Assembly (NCBI GenBank): GCA_021738535.1
Contig: JAIPBU010000021.1
Location: forward strand, 1 to 64,000
Length of the DNA: 64,000 nucleotides
Direction: 5' to 3'
Source: Bacteroidales bacterium
GTDB lineage: Bacteria; Bacteroidota; Bacteroidia; Bacteroidales; VadinHA17
Made by a program: the position numbers and the translations under genes. Position 1 is the stretch's first letter, and the number at the start of each line of letters is the position of its first letter. Under the pieces are notes generated by a model. The model made no database searches. It worked only from the letters and a program-made list of their open reading frames with translations, and was not told the origin of the DNA. Of the stretch, positions 54,437 through 64,000 are shown piece by piece.

Positions 54437-54450
54437 TTGATTTAAATCAA
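54437..54450. promoter_or_regulatory. Perfect FNR-type palindrome TTGATTTAAATCAA
   Basis: TTGAT-TTAA-ATCAA matches the E. coli FNR consensus TTGAT-N4-ATCAA at all ten fixed positions. It starts 9 bases after the GH92 stop and is 131 bases before the first gene of the respiratory cluster. It is centred about 55-60 bases upstream of the start predicted from the TATATTTG box at 54488. An Fnr-type regulator is encoded at 63013. Binding is inferred. Confidence 0.75.
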
Positions 54451-54487
54451 TAAAAAACTCCATTAAGATCAGTTATTTACATGTGAA

Positions 54488-54495
54488 TATATTTG
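54488..54495 (+). promoter_or_regulatory. -7 box of the respiratory cluster (TATATTTG)
   Basis: An exact TAnnTTTG element lies 86 bases before the first ATG (54582). No TTTG is found at the -33 distance, which would fit a promoter needing an activator at the upstream FNR site. A perfect 7-base-arm inverted repeat (CTCATCT-TT-AGATGAG, 54513-54528) lies in the predicted leader. Confidence 0.55.
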
Positions 54496-54581
54496 CTGCC
54501 CGATATATGCACTCATCTTTAGATGAGATATATTTACCACATTATTAATACTTGGTTAATTATTCAGTAATCATACAGAAC

Positions 54582-54974
54582 ATGAGCAAAATAAGAGAGG
54601 GAGCCGTAGCAAATATTTGCTTTACATTATTTGTTTTGGCTTTAATAGGCTTGACCGCATGTGAAAAATACAGCTATGATCCACCAGTTTATGAACCTCC
54701 TGAAGCTGGTGAAGTGGTTTATTACGGACAGCAAATAGCCCCGTTGTTTGAAGAATACAACTGCACAGGTTGTCATGGCGGAGGTATTAGCCCGGACCTA
54801 AGACCGGCCAATTCATTTAAGGAGCTTACTGAAGGTGGTTACATTAATCTTGATGAACCTGAAGAAAGCGGTGTTGTAAAGAATTGTATTGATTATGAGC
54901 ATGGAGAAGAATGGGCTACAGATGATGTATGGCTTTTGCTTGACTGGATATACCTGGGAGCATCTGATAATTAA
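54582..54974 (+). CDS. Mono-haem c-type cytochrome lipoprotein
   Basis: The protein (130 residues from the ATG at 54582) has a signal with lipobox (FVLALIGLTAC) and one haem site, YNCTGCHGGGISPDLRP. The fold after the haem resembles small Bacteroidota cytochrome lipoproteins, but the usual Met axial ligand is missing; the region reads CIDYEHGEEWATDDVWLLL, where a His could replace it. It is the first gene of the respiratory cluster and probably outer-membrane bound. The 10 codons before this ATG are not signal-like. Its partner is unknown. Confidence 0.75.
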   Translation: MSKIREGAVANICFTLFVLALIGLTACEKYSYDPPVYEPPEAGEVVYYGQQIAPLFEEYNCTGCHGGGISPDLRPANSFKELTEGGYINLDEPEESGVVKNCIDYEHGEEWATDDVWLLLDWIYLGASDN

Positions 54975-55003
54975 AATTGTTAAAACAAAATAAACCGACT
55001 GCA

Positions 55004-55870
55004 ATGAAAAAAATACTCTCATTACTATTTCTGGCATTACTTACCCTGCCTTTGTTATCACAGGATGAAGAGGAAGATTACCCGGTAATGTATACTTTTG
55101 AAACGGGAATGCTAGCCGATAACCAGACTGTTATGACCCCTTACAAAGGGATGATAGAGTTTCAAATCCAACACCGTTTCGGCCTGGTGACAAACGGTCA
55201 TCAATCATTATACGGTATTTACTCTCCTTCAAATATAAGGCTGGGTCTGAATTACGGTGTCACAGACAGATTAATGCTGGGAGCCGGAGCAACCAAGGAC
55301 CTTAATTTCTGGGACCTGAGTGGTAAGTACGCCATTTTACAACAAACCGAATCGGGAGCAATGCCTGTATCACTTACTTATTATGGTAATATTGGTGTTG
55401 AAGCAAGAGCTGATAATAATTTTGGTCCGCCCGAAGAATTCAAGTTTTATCATAAGTACTCCTATTTTAACCAGCTTATTGTGGCAAGGAAATTTTCAGA
55501 AACTATTTCTTTACAGCTGGCTCCTACCTTTATATGGTTTAATGCTGTTGAAACAGGATATAACAATGCCAATTTCGGATTGCACGCAGGGGGTAAATGG
55601 ACCTTTGTTCCTACTCATTCACTGATTTTTGAATATGACTACCTGTTTACACCTCCCGATACAGATCCTGACGGTGATGGCACAGATAATTTTGAGAGGA
55701 CGCTTCCCCAGATTGTAGTGGGATGGGAAAAAGGAACAGCTACCCATGCTTTCCAGCTTTTCTTTGCAAACTATAAAGCCATTATCGGGCAAAGGAATTT
55801 TGTTTATAACAAGAATGATTTCTGGGAAGGAGAATTTCTTGTTGGTATGAATGTTACAGTAAGATTCTAA
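55004..55870 (+). CDS. DUF5777-type outer membrane beta-barrel protein
   Basis: The protein (288 residues from the ATG at 55004) has a signal peptide (MKKILSLLFLALLTLPLLSQ). Amphipathic strands typical of a barrel follow, with IEFQIQHRFGLVTNGHQSLY, SNIRLGLNYGVTDRLMLGAG and a C-terminal strand ending in Phe (MNVTVRF). This is the pattern of the DUF5777 family, whose genes sit beside c-type cytochromes in Bacteroidota. A pore or sheath for an electron-transfer protein is possible but unproven. It lies 29 bases after the mono-haem lipoprotein gene and 12 before the multihaem gene. Confidence 0.75.
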   Translation: MKKILSLLFLALLTLPLLSQDEEEDYPVMYTFETGMLADNQTVMTPYKGMIEFQIQHRFGLVTNGHQSLYGIYSPSNIRLGLNYGVTDRLMLGAGATKDLNFWDLSGKYAILQQTESGAMPVSLTYYGNIGVEARADNNFGPPEEFKFYHKYSYFNQLIVARKFSETISLQLAPTFIWFNAVETGYNNANFGLHAGGKWTFVPTHSLIFEYDYLFTPPDTDPDGDGTDNFERTLPQIVVGWEKGTATHAFQLFFANYKAIIGQRNFVYNKNDFWEGEFLVGMNVTVRF

Positions 55871-55882
55871 AGAACTATTTAT

Positions 55883-56866
55883 ATGAAAATTGCACTAACA
55901 TCATTAATTGTGGCACTTATTTCTGTTATCTCATTAACAGATAAACATGCCCCTGTGCTGCAGGAGCCACAGGATGAATACCAGGTGGAAAAGGGCAGGG
56001 AGAATAATATTTTTGCCGAGGATAATGAGAATTGCCTCGTTTGTCATGGGGAGGAATATTATCAACTTTCGGATACAGCCCAGGACAAATCAGAAAGAAG
56101 GATTATGCCTTCCAATTATTATGTCGACAGGGATGAATATTACCAATCCAATCACTGGAGCTTTGGTTGCCTGGATTGTCATCCCTACGATTTCGAAAAG
56201 TTTCCCCATCCAACCTCGGCACGGCTTGAAGAGCCTTTTCATTGTAATGACTGCCATGGCTTTGATGAACAGTATGCGCATTATCATTTTGATGAAATAA
56301 CAGAGGAATATAACGAGAGTGTTCATGATGACATTGAAGGTTTCTCATGCTGGAAGTGCCATGACCCTCACAGCTATGAGATTACAATACGAACTTCAGA
56401 GAATCTTGAAGAAACTATACTCTACGACAATAATATATGCCTGGAATGTCATGCAAATTATGATAAGTTTCAGCTATTGAGTAGCAGGGATGAGATAAGG
56501 ATAGTATCGAGCCACGACTGGCTTCCGAACCAGGCGGCCCATTTTAAATCTGTGCGATGCATAGAGTGCCATACCGAGATCAGCGACAGCTTGCTTGTGG
56601 CACACAAATTGCGTCCTGCCGATAAGGCTGTAAAACGCTGTACAGAGTGTCATACATCAAATTCACGTTTACTGGCTACTCTTTATAAATTTCAAAGTAA
56701 AAAAATCAGGAATGATGCCGGTTTTGTTAATGGTGTTATACTGAATCAGTCATATGTAATAGGAGCAAACAGAAACCCTGCAATTAATATGCTGAGCTTT
56801 ATTATTTTCGGTGGGGTCGTACTGGTTATTATATTTCACATATTCATGAGGCTAATAAAAAAATAA
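55883..56866 (+). CDS. Seven-haem c-type cytochrome with C-terminal membrane anchor
   Basis: The 327-residue protein has an N-terminal signal sequence, seven CxxCH sites (CLVCH, CLDCH, CNDCH, CWKCH, CLECH, CIECH, CTECH) and a single hydrophobic helix near the C-terminus (MLSFIIFGGVVLVIIFHIF) followed by a basic tail. The topology is periplasmic haems on a C-terminal tail anchor. Free histidines between the motifs (for example NHWSFG, AHYHFDE, AAHFKS) fit bis-His ligation. The next gene (7-base gap) is a b-type cytochrome, so it probably takes electrons from quinol through that partner and NrfD. No catalytic reductase signature is seen. Confidence 0.88.
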   Translation: MKIALTSLIVALISVISLTDKHAPVLQEPQDEYQVEKGRENNIFAEDNENCLVCHGEEYYQLSDTAQDKSERRIMPSNYYVDRDEYYQSNHWSFGCLDCHPYDFEKFPHPTSARLEEPFHCNDCHGFDEQYAHYHFDEITEEYNESVHDDIEGFSCWKCHDPHSYEITIRTSENLEETILYDNNICLECHANYDKFQLLSSRDEIRIVSSHDWLPNQAAHFKSVRCIECHTEISDSLLVAHKLRPADKAVKRCTECHTSNSRLLATLYKFQSKKIRNDAGFVNGVILNQSYVIGANRNPAINMLSFIIFGGVVLVIIFHIFMRLIKK

Positions 56867-56872
56867 AATAAA

Positions 56873-57499
56873 ATGTCAAATCGTATCTATTTATACCCTG
56901 TGTGGATCAGAATATGGCACATAATAAATGCCATCCTGTTCCTTGTTCTTATTTTTACAGGTATTGCACTTCGGTTTGCCGGACAGGAAAATGCTGTTTC
57001 ACTGATCAGGTTTGATCAGGCTGTAGCATGGCATAATGTAGCTGCTATTATACTTACAGCATCCTATGTCATTTTTGTCATTGGCAACGCAATTTCCCGT
57101 AATGGCCGCTATTACAGAATTAAAAAGGAGAATTTCTGGACTGAACTGATAGCGCAGTTCAAGTTTTATGCCTTTGGTATGTTCAGAAAAGAAAAGCATC
57201 CTTTTCCTGTGAATGAGGAAAGAAAATTCAATCCCCTGCAAAAGATATCTTATGTGCTGGCAATGTATGCAGGAATGCCTGTTCTGATCATTACAGGTTT
57301 CGGATTGCTTTTTCCGGAAATTCTTATACAGCAGTTTTTTGGGATCAGCGGACTTTTAATTACAGATGTATTGCATTTTAGTATAGGATTCATATTGTCG
57401 GTTTTCCTGATTGTGCATGTATATACCTGCACATTGGGACAAAAGCCGGGAACATTATTTAAGAGTATGATGAACGGGTATCATGAAGAACATGATTAA
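56873..57499 (+). CDS. Cytochrome b561-like quinol-linked membrane subunit
   Basis: The 208-residue protein has four main membrane helices and histidines placed as haem b ligands: RIWHIINAILF (helix 1), AVAWHNVAAI (helix 2), DVLHFSIGFIL (helix 3-4) and LIVHVYTCTLG (last helix). The overall form is that of formate dehydrogenase gamma and Ni-Fe hydrogenase b subunits. It sits between the seven-haem cytochrome and the Tat-exported ferredoxin, so it should pass electrons between the menaquinone pool and the periplasmic haems. Confidence 0.87.
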   Translation: MSNRIYLYPVWIRIWHIINAILFLVLIFTGIALRFAGQENAVSLIRFDQAVAWHNVAAIILTASYVIFVIGNAISRNGRYYRIKKENFWTELIAQFKFYAFGMFRKEKHPFPVNEERKFNPLQKISYVLAMYAGMPVLIITGFGLLFPEILIQQFFGISGLLITDVLHFSIGFILSVFLIVHVYTCTLGQKPGTLFKSMMNGYHEEHD

Positions 57500-57513
57500 G
57501 ATAAAGACCATTT

Positions 57514-58473
57514 ATGAGTGACCATGATAATAAAAAATCGAGAAGAAAATTCCTTAAAAACGTAGGTGCCGGTCTGGGTGCCCTGTCACTTTCAGGAGCA
57601 GGGGCAATAGCCGGAAATAAGATTACTGAGGCCCCGGGCGGCAAAGTAAAGGTGCTGACTGCTGAGGGTAAACTGGTGGAAGTGTCCAGGGATGCTCTGA
57701 AAGACGTTAAAAGGGTAACAAATGAGAAAAGAGAAACAGCCAGGGAGGGTCTTCCCAACAGGAAGTTCATAATGGTTATTGATCTTGCCAAATGCGCAAA
57801 TGCCAGGAAATGCATTGATGCATGCCAGGAAGGTCATATGCTTCCAAAAACACATGAATGGATCCAGTTGTATTCAATACAGGAGGCTGAACATACAGCT
57901 CCTTACTGGATGCCCAGACCCTGTTTTCACTGTGACAACCCTTTATGTGTCAGTGTATGCCCGGTTGGAGCAACATATAAAAGAGATGATGGTATTGTGC
58001 TCGTAGACAGCAACAGGTGCATTGGTTGCAAATTTTGCATGACAGGCTGTCCATATTCTGCCAGGTCATTTCACTGGAAGGATCCTGAAGCAGAAGTCCC
58101 GGAAGATCACGTGTATGATCCGGAGCTTAATATTCCACCTGTTGAGGGTACAGTAGGTAAATGCGTGTTTTGTGCCGATAAATTGAGGAATAATGAATTG
58201 CCTCGTTGTGTGTCTGCCTGCCCGATGGGAGCACTGTATTTTGGTGATATGGTGGAAGATGCAATAACTAACGGACAGGAAACGTTAAGGTTTTCCAGGG
58301 TTATGGAGGAAAAGCATGGATACAGGTACATGGAGGAGCTGGGTACACATCCAAGTGTATATTATCTGCCACCTGTAGACCGACTATTCGATTATGACAG
58401 CGGGATGGAGGGTCTGAGTGAACAGGACAAGAAAAGATATAAGAAAACAGGCCCCAGGGGTAAGAAAAAATAA
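57514..58473 (+). CDS. Tat-exported NrfC/HybA-like four-cluster ferredoxin
   Basis: The 319-residue protein starts with a twin-arginine signal (KKSRRKFLKNVGAGLGALSL) and so folds before export. The core has four cluster motifs: CANARKCIDAC (94-104), CFHCDNPLCVSVCPVGA, CIGCKFCMTGCPYSA and CVFCADKLRNNELPRCVSAC. The first motif has Ala97 where the second Cys normally stands, leaving three cysteines. Partners of this type carry electrons between NrfD-like quinol sites and periplasmic enzymes; here nrfD follows by 15 bases. No molybdopterin subunit is next to it. Confidence 0.9.
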   Translation: MSDHDNKKSRRKFLKNVGAGLGALSLSGAGAIAGNKITEAPGGKVKVLTAEGKLVEVSRDALKDVKRVTNEKRETAREGLPNRKFIMVIDLAKCANARKCIDACQEGHMLPKTHEWIQLYSIQEAEHTAPYWMPRPCFHCDNPLCVSVCPVGATYKRDDGIVLVDSNRCIGCKFCMTGCPYSARSFHWKDPEAEVPEDHVYDPELNIPPVEGTVGKCVFCADKLRNNELPRCVSACPMGALYFGDMVEDAITNGQETLRFSRVMEEKHGYRYMEELGTHPSVYYLPPVDRLFDYDSGMEGLSEQDKKRYKKTGPRGKKK

Positions 58474-58488
58474 AATACACTTATTATT

Positions 58489-59811
58489 ATGGAAATAAGG
58501 AATAAGAGCCTTCTAAAAGATTTTACTTCGGAGATTGTAACTACATCAAGAAAATGGTACCTGCTCTTTGGTTTTTTTGTGATAATCTGGGCATTGGGAG
58601 TATATGCCCTTGTCCTTCAGATCGACAAAGGGCATGTAGTTACCGGTATGAGAGATAATGTAGTCTGGGGAGTATATATAGTAAACTTTATCTTCTTTAT
58701 GGGACTGAGTTATGCCGGGGCGCTGATTTCCGGGGTACTGCACCTTTTTAAATCCCCCTGGCGGGCTCCCGTAATTAGATTCGCAGAGCTTATAACAGTT
58801 ATATCCCTGTGTGTGGGGCCATTCTTTATATTTTTCTGTATTGGCAGACTGGACCGGCTGCCTTTTTTGTTCGCATATCCACGTATACAATCTCCAATTA
58901 CCTGGGATGTCATTGCAATATGCACTGACCTTATAGGATGTTTTATATTTCTATATCTCTCACTTATAGAGGATTTTGCTATCCTGCGAGATACAAAAGA
59001 TATTAGCTTCAAACCATGGAAAAGAAAGTTGTATGAAGTACTGGCGCTGGGATACCAGGGTACGGAGAAACAATATAAATTACTTTCAAGAGCAAAGAAT
59101 ATCATGGCTGCAATGATCATTGCAATTGCCATAATTGTATATTCAGTACTGGCATGGATTTTCGGAGTTACATTGCAACCTGGCTGGCATAGTACCATAT
59201 TTGGTCCCTATTTTGTGATCGCCGCCGTTTTTTCAGGTACGGGACTGCTGATCATACTGATGCAGATATTCCGTAAGATATACAGGCTTGAAAAGTATAT
59301 TACAAAGAAACATTTCGTAAATGTAGGCGTATTGTTGCTGATTATAGCTGCTTTCTATGGCTACTTTACATTTAGTGACTATCTTACCAAGTGGTATGGC
59401 TCGGTGAAAATGGACAAATTACTTATTGATAAATTGTTCGAGGATTACTACTTCCTGTTTATTTTCGCAAATTACCTGGGTATCCTTATTCCAATTATAA
59501 TAGTAGGAATACCGAAGTTCAGAAACATCAGGAATATTGTTATAGCTGCTGTTATAGCGCTTCTTGGTTTGTGGATAAACCGTTATATTATTGTGGTACC
59601 TACCCTGGAAACCCCTTTTCTGCCAATACAGGATTACAGGCCGGATTTTATTAAGTATTCACCTACCTGGGTTGAATGGGCCTTAACAGCTGCAGGGGTA
59701 GCCGTCTTTGGAATTTTTATGATGCTGGTATCCAAGATAGCCCCTCTGGTTTCAATCTCGGAAATGAAAAGCACAGAGAACAATAAAATAACTTTAACAC
59801 CGGAAGTATGA
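58489..59811 (+). CDS. nrfD: NrfD-family polysulfide reductase-like membrane subunit
   Basis: The 440-residue protein has about ten membrane helices. It begins with a cytoplasmic tail and the NrfD wording VVTGMRDNVVWGVYIVNFIF, continuing FMGLSYAGALISGVLHLFKS and FAYPRIQSPITWDVIAICTD. NrfD proteins oxidise or reduce quinol without bound haem and, in some complexes, may move protons. It pairs with the ferredoxin gene before it. Its last four bases overlap the next gene, so the 291-residue protein is translationally coupled to it. Confidence 0.92.
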   Translation: MEIRNKSLLKDFTSEIVTTSRKWYLLFGFFVIIWALGVYALVLQIDKGHVVTGMRDNVVWGVYIVNFIFFMGLSYAGALISGVLHLFKSPWRAPVIRFAELITVISLCVGPFFIFFCIGRLDRLPFLFAYPRIQSPITWDVIAICTDLIGCFIFLYLSLIEDFAILRDTKDISFKPWKRKLYEVLALGYQGTEKQYKLLSRAKNIMAAMIIAIAIIVYSVLAWIFGVTLQPGWHSTIFGPYFVIAAVFSGTGLLIILMQIFRKIYRLEKYITKKHFVNVGVLLLIIAAFYGYFTFSDYLTKWYGSVKMDKLLIDKLFEDYYFLFIFANYLGILIPIIIVGIPKFRNIRNIVIAAVIALLGLWINRYIIVVPTLETPFLPIQDYRPDFIKYSPTWVEWALTAAGVAVFGIFMMLVSKIAPLVSISEMKSTENNKITLTPEV

Positions 59812-60683
59812 AAAAATTGTTCATCAATATAATAACAGTTCTCATTCTCTTTACAGCGGCAGCCTTGGAACAGGGCCACTCACAAACAGGTAAGGAACAG
59901 GAAGTGCTGGTTCCATATATGGAATTTAAATACCTTAAGAATACCGATAATCAACGCATTCTTGAAGCCAAAGTTTCTCTTCCGGGAGACCTGGGCCTGG
60001 AGCCAATTGAAGGGCTGACAGTGAAATTCTTTACCAATATGGATAACCCCGTCCCAATGGGTGAAGCAATTACCGATTCCAAAGGAATAGCAAAGTATAT
60101 TATTCCTGATGATTATGCCATACCTGTTGATGAGGAAGGCTATTGGTGGTTTTACGCGGAATCTGAAGCTGATGATAAGTATGATATATCCATGGCAGAA
60201 GTTACTGTCCGGGATGTTACGCTTGACATGGCCCTTAATGAAGGAGAAGAGGGAAAAAAGGTAATCCTTAAGGCATACACAATAGTTGATGGGGAGAAGG
60301 TACCTGTTAGTGATGAAGATATTTTTGTCTACGTCCCGAGAATGTTTAGCCTGTTACCTGTTGCCGAAGGATATTTTATTGATGGTGTGGCAGAAGTTGA
60401 ATTCCCGGAGGATGTTCCGGGCGACGATGAGGGTAACATTACTGTAATAGGACGATTTAATGACCACTGGCAGTATGGTAATGTTGAACAAAGAGTCGCT
60501 ACAAAATGGGGGATACCTGCATCACATGAAGTCGCAGAGACACATCGTACATTGTGGACCCAGATAGCACCCCGCTGGATGATAGTCACATTGACAATTA
60601 TGCTGGCTGGTGTTTGGGGGCACTACGTGTTCGCAATAATTAGTATGGTACGGATAAAAAGGACCACGAAGAAGATGAAATAA
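59808..60683 (+). CDS. Unrecognised periplasmic protein with C-terminal membrane anchor
   Basis: I do not recognise this 291-residue protein. It has a signal peptide (MKKLFINIITVLILFTAAAL), a long acidic beta-rich region that may hold two Ig-like or carboxypeptidase-regulatory-like folds (about 40-120, LTVKFFTNMDNPVPMGEA ... GIAKYIIPDDYA; and about 130-225), and a C-terminal membrane helix (WMIVTLTIMLAGVWGHYVFA) with a basic tail. No cysteines or haem motifs are visible in the folded part. Start-stop overlap (ATGA) with nrfD implies a fixed ratio to that subunit, so an accessory or assembly part of the same membrane complex is the best guess. Confidence 0.7.
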   Translation: MKKLFINIITVLILFTAAALEQGHSQTGKEQEVLVPYMEFKYLKNTDNQRILEAKVSLPGDLGLEPIEGLTVKFFTNMDNPVPMGEAITDSKGIAKYIIPDDYAIPVDEEGYWWFYAESEADDKYDISMAEVTVRDVTLDMALNEGEEGKKVILKAYTIVDGEKVPVSDEDIFVYVPRMFSLLPVAEGYFIDGVAEVEFPEDVPGDDEGNITVIGRFNDHWQYGNVEQRVATKWGIPASHEVAETHRTLWTQIAPRWMIVTLTIMLAGVWGHYVFAIISMVRIKRTTKKMK

Positions 60684-60731
60684 TTTTAGCATGATAATTG
60701 TACTATTAATAATGAATTAAAAATTTATGTT

Positions 60732-61148
60732 ATGAAAACACTTAAAATTTTTACAATGGGACTGTTACTAACAGGATTTGGATTAGCATTAGTCTCAATG
60801 ACTCCCCAGAGGCAGAAGATGCCTGAACCATGGGAAGTGCCCGCTAAGTATAAGAATATGGAAAATCCTGTGGAGGCAAATGATGCAAGTATTAAGAAAG
60901 GTGCATCAATGTATAAGCGCTTTTGCGCATCCTGCCATGGCAGAGAGGGCCTTGGTGATGGTCCAAAGGCCAGAGTGCTGAAGACTTTTCCCGGTGACTT
61001 CTCCGGTGATCAATACCAGGATCAGACCGATGGTGAGCATTTCTATAAAACCAAATTCGGACGAGGAGAAATGCCTGCTTATAAAAGGATAGCTGATGAA
61101 GATATCTGGAATATTGTTAACTACATGCGTACTTTTAAAGCAGAATAG
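60732..61148 (+). CDS. Mono-haem cytochrome c
   Basis: The 138-residue protein has a signal or anchor helix (MKTLKIFTMGLLLTGFGLAL) and one class I cytochrome c domain. The haem site is FCASCHGREGLGDGPKA and the axial Met lies in GRGEMPAYKRI, followed by the closing helix IWNIVNYMRTF. It is a good soluble or tethered electron carrier for the upstream complex. It lies 48 bases after the previous gene and is followed by a terminator, so it ends the cluster. Confidence 0.9.
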   Translation: MKTLKIFTMGLLLTGFGLALVSMTPQRQKMPEPWEVPAKYKNMENPVEANDASIKKGASMYKRFCASCHGREGLGDGPKARVLKTFPGDFSGDQYQDQTDGEHFYKTKFGRGEMPAYKRIADEDIWNIVNYMRTFKAE

Positions 61149-61500: not shown

Positions 61501-61565
61501 GGTTACGGTAGCCGGAGGGAGATCAACATTAACATAAGCATATTATCTATAGTTAATTATAAATA

Positions 61566-61596
61566 AAAAGGGGCTCCTTGTGGGAGCCCTTTTTTA
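61566..61596. terminator. Bidirectional terminator between cytochrome genes
   Basis: GGGCTCC and GGAGCCC form a stem with a 5-base loop flanked by A5-6 on the left and T6 on the right, so it can work for either strand. It lies about 30 bases past the stop codon of the minus-strand hexahaem gene. Confidence 0.88.
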
Positions 61597-61626
61597 TTTG
61601 GCTTTGTATTTCAGAAACTATGTTGA

Positions 61627-62766
61627 TTAGTATGTTACAGAGAATACTGTTTCAAGGGTGTTAAGTAAAACTGCCTCGGTGTAACCGGGGTTATGCATTC
61701 CCATGCTCCTGTCTTCCTCTATTGCCTGCCAGTTTATGTATGCTGCTACGTGCTCCTGTGTTTGTGAGCTGGTAACAGGGTGTCCGGAGGCATCAATCAC
61801 TCCTGCATTAAGGAGTTCTGTTTCCAGGTCAGCAAGGTAGGTTTCAATATTTGTCTGTACGGCTGCTGCTTTAGTGTCCAGTGTGGCTGCGTCTGTATGG
61901 CATTCAAGGCATGCAGCAGGCCAGTTATTAACAGATGAACCGTGGTAGGAGTATGAAAATTTCCATGTGTGTCCTCCTGCCTGTGTTCCGTATGCATCAT
62001 TCATATGGCATGTAACACATCCGTCAGCTGCAGCCGGAACCATAGTTGATGTAGTCCCATGATTTCCACCAGGTGTGGGAATAGTTGCAGAACCTGAGAA
62101 TTCAAACAATCCTTCACCTACGAAAATATTATACTGTGGGCCGTGGTGCAGTCCCCAGTATGGAGATGGAGGAGTATATGTTGCTGTACCGCCGTCATCC
62201 CAGTTATCAAGTGTTCCAATTGATCTTGCCTGGTGACATCCTGTACACATGTTTCCTGCACCTATGTCTGTAGATGTCACTGTTGATCCGTCTGTACTGT
62301 GCCATGCATTTGTTGCTGCTGTCTTGGTAAGGTTCCAGTCGTCTGTCGTGTAAGTGTTGTGAATGTCGTGACAGGTGTAACAGTTGGGTTGTGTAGGATT
62401 ATCAATTGCCGCATCCAATTCCTTGTTACCTAGTGTAGATTCAAAATGACCGGCTGCATTGGCTTCAGAAAAACCCTGGCTGGTGTGACAAATAGAACAA
62501 TCAGCATCATTTCTTTCTGCATTACCTCCTGTGGCATGCACTGATGCTTCCCACTGTGCTGATACAGCTGTAATGACCTGGCTGTTGTCGTGGCACTCAA
62601 TACATCCTGCTGTTCCGGCCGGACCGGTTGGTCCCTGCGGACCAACATCTCCTGTGTCTCCTTTTGGTCCCTGCGGGCCTTCAGGTCCCTGGGGCCCCTC
62701 ACAGGCAGTAAATGTAAAGGCCAGCGCCGCTACAATCATAAATAATAGACTTGATAGTTTCTTCAT
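61627..62766 (-). CDS. Hexahaem lipoprotein with collagen-like Gly-X-Y stalk
   Basis: The 379-residue protein has a lipoprotein signal (MKKLSSLLFMIVAALAFTFT, then Ala-Cys22). Ten collagen-type Gly-X-Y triplets follow (24-53; GPQGPEGPQGPKGDTGDVGP and onward), running directly into a region with six CxxCH haem sites (CIECH at 55-59, CSICH, CYTCH, CTGCH, CVTCH, CLECH). Further His and Met residues lie between the sites (WHSTDG, LHHGPQY, GGHTWKF, YHGSSV). The last ~90 residues have no haem motif. A rod-like spacer between the lipid anchor and the haem domain fits a protein that holds haems away from the outer membrane surface. No catalytic motif is recognised. It is transcribed away from the regulator gene. 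Confidence 0.88.
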   Translation of the reverse strand: MKKLSSLLFMIVAALAFTFTACEGPQGPEGPQGPKGDTGDVGPQGPTGPAGTAGCIECHDNSQVITAVSAQWEASVHATGGNAERNDADCSICHTSQGFSEANAAGHFESTLGNKELDAAIDNPTQPNCYTCHDIHNTYTTDDWNLTKTAATNAWHSTDGSTVTSTDIGAGNMCTGCHQARSIGTLDNWDDGGTATYTPPSPYWGLHHGPQYNIFVGEGLFEFSGSATIPTPGGNHGTTSTMVPAAADGCVTCHMNDAYGTQAGGHTWKFSYSYHGSSVNNWPAACLECHTDAATLDTKAAAVQTNIETYLADLETELLNAGVIDASGHPVTSSQTQEHVAAYINWQAIEEDRSMGMHNPGYTEAVLLNTLETVFSVTY

Positions 62767-62910: not shown

Positions 62911-62924
62911 TTGATAAATATCAA
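62911..62924. promoter_or_regulatory. Perfect FNR-type palindrome TTGATAAATATCAA
   Basis: TTGAT-AAAT-ATCAA matches the FNR consensus at all ten fixed positions. It lies between the divergent hexahaem and regulator genes, 88 bases before the regulator ATG. A compressed version without spacer (TTGATATCAA) follows at 62955-62964, close to the presumed core promoter. Confidence 0.75.
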
Positions 62925-63012: not shown

Positions 63013-63705
63013 ATGACAAAAGAAAATATTTGCAATTGTGTCGACTGTGAAGAAGGATGGTTGAATTTCAAGGTTTTATCAAGGGATGAGCTTGAGATTC
63101 TTGAGGAAAACAGGTATGAAGCTGATTTCAGGGCAGGAGAAACAATACTCAAGCAATCATCTCCCGCCTCAAATGCTGTCTTTTTGCGATCAGGAATGGC
63201 AAAAATCTACCTTGAAGGCCAGGGTAGTAAGAACCTTATTGTCAGTATAGCAAAGCCGGGTATAATGATCGTGGGTCCCGGTATCTATACTGACAACAGG
63301 CATTCTTTTTCTGTTTCAAGTATTAACTCGGTAAAGGCATGCTTCATTAGAATTGAGGTAATAAAAAAATTGTTCGGGCAAAACAGGAAGTTTGCTGAAG
63401 GGGTGATCAGGGAAATGAGCCGTATGTCGCACTGGTACCTTGATAAATTAATGAGCATGACACAGAAAAAGATGCCGGGCAGGGTAGCTGAAGTATTGCT
63501 TTACCTCTCAGGGGAAGTATACGGAGCCGGGGAGTTTAATCCTTTGCTGACGCGACAGGAACTGGCTGATATGGCAGGGATGGCGAAGGAGAGTTTTGTC
63601 AGGATACTGAAAGAATTTTCAGATGAAGGAATAATATGTTCTGACTGCCCTGACATTAAGATAATGCAAAAAGAAAAATTACAAATGATATCAGATAACG
63701 GATAA
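63013..63705 (+). CDS. Crp/Fnr-family regulator with FNR-like cysteine set
   Basis: The 230-residue protein has a cyclic-nucleotide-binding-type sensor domain (RAGETILKQSSPASNAVFLR) and a C-terminal winged helix (LLTRQELADMAGMAKESFVR as HTH). Three cysteines sit at the very N-terminus (Cys7, Cys9, Cys12 in ICNCVDCEEGW) and a fourth at 110 in VKACFIRIE, at the place equivalent to Cys122 of E. coli FNR. This suggests an oxygen-sensitive [4Fe-4S] cluster. The recognition helix keeps the Glu and Arg that read TGA half-sites (KESFVRIL). Two perfect FNR boxes in its own promoter region and before the respiratory cluster fit an oxygen-responsive, autoregulated activator. It is followed by the haem-attachment gene after 8 bases. 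Confidence 0.88.
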   Translation: MTKENICNCVDCEEGWLNFKVLSRDELEILEENRYEADFRAGETILKQSSPASNAVFLRSGMAKIYLEGQGSKNLIVSIAKPGIMIVGPGIYTDNRHSFSVSSINSVKACFIRIEVIKKLFGQNRKFAEGVIREMSRMSHWYLDKLMSMTQKKMPGRVAEVLLYLSGEVYGAGEFNPLLTRQELADMAGMAKESFVRILKEFSDEGIICSDCPDIKIMQKEKLQMISDNG

Positions 63706-63713
63706 TAAACCAT

Positions 63714-64000
63714 ATGAAAATCAACTTTAAATCACTTTTTTCACCCGTATTCACGGGTGTTTTATTTGGCATTTTTGCCCTTGCAATGGCAGTTGCAACT
63801 TTTATTGAGAATGATTTTGGTGCGGCCTCGGCACGCCAGATAGTATATAACAGTAGCTGGTTTGAGCTTGTCTTCCTGCTGATGGTGATCAACCTCAGCG
63901 GTCAGATATTTACCTTTAAACTTTACAAGAAGAAGAAACTGACAGTAATGTTATTCCACGTGGCATTTATTGTTATTATTATCGGTGCGGCCATTACAAG
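63714..64000 (+). CDS. ResB/CcsA-type cytochrome c maturation protein, 5' part
   Basis: The reading frame from the ATG at 63714 stays open to the window edge (95 codons). The product has a first membrane helix (FTGVLFGIFALAMAVATFIE), a loop with ENDFGAASARQIVYNSSWFE and a second and third helix (LVFLLMVINLSG, VMLFHVAFIVIIIGAAIT). This is the start of the Bacteroidota fused CcsB-CcsA (NrfI-like) haem lyase that exports haem and attaches it to CxxCH sites. It would mature the 15 haem sites encoded in this region. The rest lies outside. Confidence 0.82.
   Translation, partial: MKINFKSLFSPVFTGVLFGIFALAMAVATFIENDFGAASARQIVYNSSWFELVFLLMVINLSGQIFTFKLYKKKKLTVMLFHVAFIVIIIGAAIT

Follow-up and report, generated by a model that had tools for sequence, protein, structure and literature searches.

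The 64 kb window analysed here (positions 1 to 64,000, forward strand, of contig JAIPBU010000021.1, assembly GCA_021738535.1, a Bacteroidales bacterium of the VadinHA17 lineage) carries an operon of eight genes, labelled A to H throughout, followed by the gene for a stalked hexahaem lipoprotein, X, and the gene for a Crp/FNR-family regulator, R. We read these genes as an FNR-regulated electron-transfer chain that would lead from menaquinol through the periplasm to an outer-membrane multihaem lipoprotein, with its acceptor at or beyond the outer membrane. We put the probability of this reading at about 0.6. It draws on computed gene content, conservation, FNR boxes, homologies and haem-ligand patterns.

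All eight genes lie on the + strand at 54582-61148 in the list of open reading frames, and the intergenic gaps from A to H are 29, 12, 6, 14, 15, −4 and 48 bp. A to H is one operon, real and conserved. F was used as the query in 84,980 species genomes, which gave 212 relatives, and the best 80 loci were annotated. F is present in every locus by construction, and the conservation counts use the 50 loci in which F is not close to the end of a contig. Almost every locus comes from a metagenome assembly. At these 50 intact loci A, B and E are always present, A adjoins B every time, and the counts for the other genes are 49 (G), 48 (H), 46 (C), 45 (D), 43 (R) and 42 (X). The order A to H, X, R and a ResB/CcsA-type gene was found again in relatives from the same family as the window genome. 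The gene-neighbourhood search that the initial annotation of this DNA had proposed thus returned the ordered set in tens of other Bacteroidota genomes, and because of this recurrence the set of eight genes is more than chance. All but one of the locus records are labelled Bacteroidota. The exception (L114) is labelled Alphaproteobacteria; since its layout closely matches that of L105, mis-binning is the probable explanation. In three Lutibacter isolates the set is reduced to X-A-B-E-F-G-H, with C-D missing.

X (61627-62766, − strand) lies 479 bp downstream of H. Its lipid Cys is followed by a collagen-like (Gxx)n stalk with the linker CEGPQGPEGPQGPKG, and the stalk is present in 50 of 53 homologues. 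There are six haem motifs, the last sometimes CX4CH, and six invariant histidines outside the CXXCH motifs. When a profile of X was compared with the PDB, the closest solved relative was OcwA (6I5B, E = 2.6e-15), followed by octahaem nitrite reductase, 6QVM and NrfA. In Thermincola, OcwA serves as a terminal reductase on the cell surface (PMC6703420). Since X combines six haems with six further invariant histidines and a Gxx stalk, it fits an electron-transfer protein better than a substrate enzyme. It scores 19 bits against Cytochrom_C552, which is below the cut-off, and has no CXXCK; with six candidate distal histidines, a nitrite reductase is disfavoured. The true NrfA of this genome lies on another contig (C44) with its own NrfH, and because NrfH adjoins NrfA there, the module is also disfavoured as the electron donor of NrfA. 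We predict that X is probably an outer-membrane terminal cytochrome, the reductase missing from A to H. The initial annotation had reported no terminal reductase and had overlooked this member of the OcwA/NrfA superfamily.

The genes E to H encode a ferredoxin-NrfD quinol module. E (57514-58473, +) is a ferredoxin subunit with a twin-arginine translocation (Tat) signal, and it matches PsrB and ActB among PDB sequences. Its 15 cysteines are conserved in 82-83 of 83 homologues, as many as one 3Fe-4S and three 4Fe-4S clusters should need; these are the cluster contents of ActB and QrcC (PMC8076601). F (58489-59811, +) is an NrfD-family quinol subunit (Pfam NrfD, 102 bits) of the ActC type. Against the PDB it scores 261-286 bits to four ActC chains of alternative complex III (ACIII) and matches ActF weakly; the same search gave no match to PsrC. 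A tree places F within one of two ActC-adjacent clades, away from E. coli NrfD, HybB and the PsrC-like protein of its own genome, with long branches making the deeper joins unsure. NrfBCD was therefore rejected as the nearest kin, and the label "NrfBCD-like" in the initial annotation does not stand. Membership of DsrMKJOP was rejected too, since E scores 188 bits against the NCBIfam DsrO model (cut-off 200) and F 76 bits against DsrP (cut-off 350). With the QrcD model F scores 48 bits (cut-off 570). The ActC residues Ser164, Asp169 and Arg395 have counterparts in F, but His139 of the ActC quinone site, from the residue list in PMC8076601, is replaced by Cys117. This cysteine is found in 82/82 window-type sequences; the same site is Asp in all 16 sequences of the second clade and His in both ActC sequences.

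G (59808-60683, +) consists of two immunoglobulin (Ig)-like domains and a C-terminal membrane helix in an AlphaFold2 model with a mean predicted local distance difference test score (pLDDT) of 91.5. It has no match in Pfam or NCBIfam, and Foldseek returned only generic Ig-like matches with template modelling scores below 0.35. H (60732-61148, +) is a class I cytochrome c by Pfam, His/Met ligated, with the CXXCH and Met114 conserved in 85/85 sequences. Both proteins have a relative in a second set of genes in this genome. There, E'-F'-G' stand directly before SCO and a cytochrome oxidase operon (locus L035, contig C11, 132000-151000). G' is a cytochrome c fused to a G-like domain and helix; H matches its N-terminal cytochrome domain and G is homologous to its C-terminal part.

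The genome of the window has no bc1 cytochrome b and no ActD anywhere; it lacks both bc1 and ACIII. Among 117 genomes of the family, full-length G' is present in 16 (one from a partial match), ActD in 21 and both in none (hypergeometric p ~0.03, uncorrected for kinship). Strong matches to A-type COX1 share a contig with G' or with ActD in about a dozen cases each, by comparison of contig names. Because E'F'G' precedes an oxidase in a genome without bc1 or ActD, G' and ActD never co-occur, and both share contigs with COX1, it is plausible that quinol is the electron donor of E-F-G units and cytochrome c their acceptor, a function that is supported but not proven. The E'F'G' set is a possible new substitute for ACIII. 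A wider proposal, to which we give slightly less than even odds, is that E-F-G(-H) forms an undescribed class of compact NrfD-based quinol:cytochrome c oxidoreductases in Bacteroidota. Its Asp branch, with the cytochrome fused to G, would replace ACIII and bc1 before an A-type oxidase. Its invariant-Cys branch, with H separate and under FNR control, would be wired together with a CbcL-like unit to a stalked hexahaem lipoprotein for extracellular respiration.

C and D would provide that CbcL-like unit. C (55883-56866, +) is a tail-anchored heptahaem cytochrome c by Pfam. The seven CXXCH motifs are present in all 65 homologues, as are seven further periplasmic histidines, so that each of the seven haems has a candidate distal histidine (bis-His). 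Another invariant histidine, His319 (65/65), lies within the C-terminal membrane helix and is a possible haem or quinone ligand. D (56873-57499, +) is a cytochrome b of the Ni_hydr_CYTB/b561 type (Pfam, 88.6 bits; PhsC-type NCBIfam model, 188 bits). Its residues His16, His54, His168 and His182 are conserved in 64-65 of 65 homologues and are expected to bind two haems b. In two Bacteroidota loci (L061 and L108), at 41-45% identity to the window proteins, C and D form a single fused protein. A multihaem c domain fused to a cytochrome b is the architecture described for CbcL/MtoC/MtrH (PMC6295460).

The first two genes encode the remaining envelope proteins. A (54582-54974, +) is a mono-haem c lipoprotein in which the lipobox Cys and the CXXCH are conserved in 22 homologues. 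B (55004-55870, +) is a DUF5777 outer-membrane β-barrel (Pfam PF19089, 222 bits). Its AlphaFold2 model (pLDDT 87) has 12 barrel strands, and the structural matches found by Foldseek are OmpG, NanC, FapF and other porin-type barrels. On this model B is too small for an MtrA-like wire. Of 296 Bacteroidota genomes, 115 encode DUF5777, usually next to genes for a mono-haem lipoprotein and for a secreted protein of about 180 residues that looks YceI-like (L156-L185). EB_dh-type lipoproteins with a CX3CH motif adjoin A-B in some relatives, either replacing X or alongside it (L189:2053-3288, L047:4176-5402, L187:13204-14595 and L190:12440-13777).

The regulatory signals were searched for as the FNR box TTGAT-N4-ATCAA. 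Exactly two boxes without mismatch occur in the 64 kb window, one upstream of A (TTGATTTAAATCAA, 54437-54450) and one between the divergent genes X and R (TTGATAAATATCAA, 62911-62924). Of the 39 perfect boxes in the 80 loci, 27 precede A, X or R, and 64 kb upstream of unrelated neighbours contained none; 19 permuted palindromes gave 0-3 each in the same regions. With one mismatch allowed, a box stands upstream of A, X or R in 47 of 67 loci, versus 9 of 74 control loci. R (63013-63705, +; Pfam HTH_Crp_2 and cNMP_binding) has three invariant cysteines in 58/58 sequences. They align to Cys20, Cys23 and Cys122 of FNR, with an E. coli FNR sequence as the yardstick. Cys16 and Cys29 of FNR have no counterpart, and the fourth cluster ligand is variable. 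The boxes and the FNR-like R tie the module to low oxygen and suggest control of an FNR type, with R as a putative oxygen sensor.

The functional block reaches past 61148, since X, R and the ResB/CcsA gene accompany A to H in relatives. Beyond H there is a strong bidirectional terminator-like hairpin (61560-61600; a 19-pair stem on the + strand and a matching stem on the − strand), which sets the operon apart from X, then X itself, then R, and then the start of the ResB/CcsA-type cytochrome c assembly gene (63714-64000, +), which runs off the window. Its counterpart in locus L038 is 1029 residues long (Cytochrom_C_asm 144 bits, ResB 68 bits). A plasmid search gave no match. The initial annotation had drawn the module at 54437-61148 as eight co-oriented genes with mostly short gaps. 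All eight genes were recovered, with gaps of −4 to 48 bp, but the block does not end there, and 54437 is the position of an FNR box and no gene start; A is best read from the ATG at 54582. The family assignments made at that time hold by Pfam and NCBIfam profiles and CXXCH counts, with G lacking a family. So does the description of a quinol-handling envelope operon without a molybdopterin, NrfA or oxidase subunit, as judged by the reading frames and profiles.

Other redox genes stand near the module in its relatives. A six-haem protein of about 500 residues with an NapC/NirT-type N-terminal region adjoins it in several of them (L103:12301-13794), with similar reading frames in L059, L076, L082, L092, L095, L097, L104 and L108; it is possibly a third type of quinol dehydrogenase. 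In L041 (10339-13149) a second ferredoxin-NrfD pair and a four-haem cytochrome lie between H and X, and likewise in L049, L050 and L054. Elsewhere in the window genome, glycine-cleavage-H-like proteins flank a ferredoxin-NrfD pair, followed by a two-component system (L037, contig C32). On contig C55 (L211, 67000-86000) there are 11-, 10-, 5- and 4-haem cytochromes, two NHL propellers and a 649-residue protein without a family, probably a barrel. This cluster looks like a porin-cytochrome conduit.

From the data above we infer quinol oxidation as the direction, the order of the carriers, the role of X as terminal reductase, its surface exposure, the outer-membrane route and the acceptor. At low oxygen, R would activate the promoters of A-H and X. 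Two quinol dehydrogenases would then feed the chain. E-F, which pairs an NrfD of the ActC type with its ferredoxin and would have G as its scaffold, would oxidise menaquinol and hand the electrons to H. C-D, as a split CbcL-like cytochrome b with a heptahaem wire, would also oxidise menaquinol. H, C or both would reduce an outer-membrane assembly of A, the barrel B and the stalked X, and X would reduce an external acceptor such as Fe(III), humics, an electrode or a partner cell.

The least secure part of this chain is how electrons would pass the outer membrane, and several observations weigh against the chain as drawn. B, with 12 strands, is far below an MtrB-type porin in size and A has one haem, which excludes an MtrAB-style crossing; a role of A-B as an MtrAB-like conduit is therefore ruled out. 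Pairs like A-B also stand with YceI-like proteins in many other Bacteroidota, and so A-B is not specific to this process. The same wide occurrence weakens a Cyc2-like porin-cytochrome, which was considered for A-B. Some relatives have A-B-E-F-G-H with an EB_dh lipoprotein instead of X, or with neither. The superfamily of X includes nitrite and hydroxylamine enzymes. Finally, the CbcL/MtoC/MtrH proteins have been implicated in both electron directions, with no feature that distinguishes them (PMC6295460).

That superfamily, which joins X with NrfA, octahaem nitrite reductase and OcwA, raises the idea that X is an enzyme and that the module supports respiration of a soluble compound in the periplasm, such as an oxyanion of nitrogen or sulfur. 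OcwA itself slowly reduces nitrite (PMC6703420), and ferredoxin-NrfD modules usually serve soluble substrates (PMC8076601). We consider this unlikely, given that X lacks CXXCK and that its six haems are matched by six invariant histidines, leaving no obvious open haem site. X is also a lipoprotein on a long flexible stalk, NrfHA is already in the genome, and the lipoprotein that replaces X in some relatives is unrelated to it.

The two-way record of the CbcL-type proteins would also suit an inward chain, in which electrons from Fe(II), a mineral or a partner cell enter through X or an associated outer-membrane protein, and C-D, E-F or both pass them to menaquinone. The ferredoxin-NrfD complexes Qrc and Nhc do reduce menaquinone (PMC8076601, PMC13059093), and two quinone modules could mean one for each direction. 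ActC and the oxidase-linked paralogue, to which F is most closely related, are however on the quinol-oxidising side. His/Met cytochromes such as H usually have a high potential, and the window has ordinary heterotrophic genes, such as those for acyl-CoA dehydrogenase and electron-transfer flavoprotein. Reversal therefore seems to us somewhat less likely again than a soluble acceptor. Least probable of all is that H feeds a cytochrome oxidase or peroxidase encoded elsewhere, with C, A, B and X as accessories. H and the cytochrome domain of G' are homologous, and the genome does have a cytochrome oxidase operon, but that oxidase has its own E'F'G' set, R and the FNR boxes point to low oxygen, and conservation at the locus extends to X, A and B.

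The probable outward chain suggests an ability of many uncultured Bacteroidota to use extracellular substances for respiration, by a previously undescribed route. As polymer degraders, Bacteroidota abound in anoxic sediments and stratified lakes, and few routes of extracellular respiration have been described for them. If the reading is true, this capacity would be predictable from Bacteroidota genomes, and a quinol module derived from ACIII would have been reused for an outer-membrane acceptor. The reading is testable, because cultured Lutibacter species, such as L. flavus and L. oceani, carry the reduced form. The initial annotation did not recognise the combination of genes, in line with our full-text literature searches, which returned no prior description of the gene order (subscription papers and preprints lay outside the search). 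The catalogue of NrfD complexes (PMC8076601) lists no such complex.

The nearest known systems are ACIII, CbcL and OcwA, and not Nrf. In ACIII (ActABCDEF), ActC is the closest solved structure to F, the cysteine count of E is like that of the Fe-S part of ActB, and the mono-haem cytochrome H, or G' in the paralogue, parallels ActE; E'F'G' holds the place of ACIII before a cytochrome oxidase. In contrast to ACIII, the operon has no ActA pentahaem subunit, large ActB, ActD or second NrfD (ActF), its Ig-like subunit G is unique, and Cys replaces His139 of the ActC quinone site. The Nrf, Qrc, Nhc and Dsr modules are alike in having a Tat ferredoxin and NrfD with a multihaem c subunit. The operon differs from them in lacking NrfA or a molybdopterin-like subunit, and nothing in the NrfD catalogue (PMC8076601) corresponds to G or X. 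C-D resembles CbcL/MtoC/MtrH, including Geobacter CbcL, in its multihaem c domain and HydC/FdnI-type cytochrome b, a likeness of architecture; the two parts are fused in L061 and L108 and split in the window. Unlike CbcL, C-D is usually two genes, has seven haems instead of nine and always stands beside the NrfD module. MtrCAB and other porin-cytochrome conduits likewise have a barrel gene beside a surface-type multihaem lipoprotein and periplasmic cytochromes, but the 12 strands of B and single haem of A do not make an MtrAB-type sheath and wire. OcwA (6I5B) and the multihaem cytochrome 6QVM, the best structural-database relatives of X, have a C-terminal helix signature in common with it. X is smaller than these, hexahaem, and lipid-anchored on a collagen-like stalk, with six conserved candidate distal histidines. 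By these feature tests the system is not Nrf, Dsr, ACIII or Mtr; in its working it would combine features of a compact ACIII with those of a quinol dehydrogenase of the CbcL type and a terminal cytochrome of the OcwA type.

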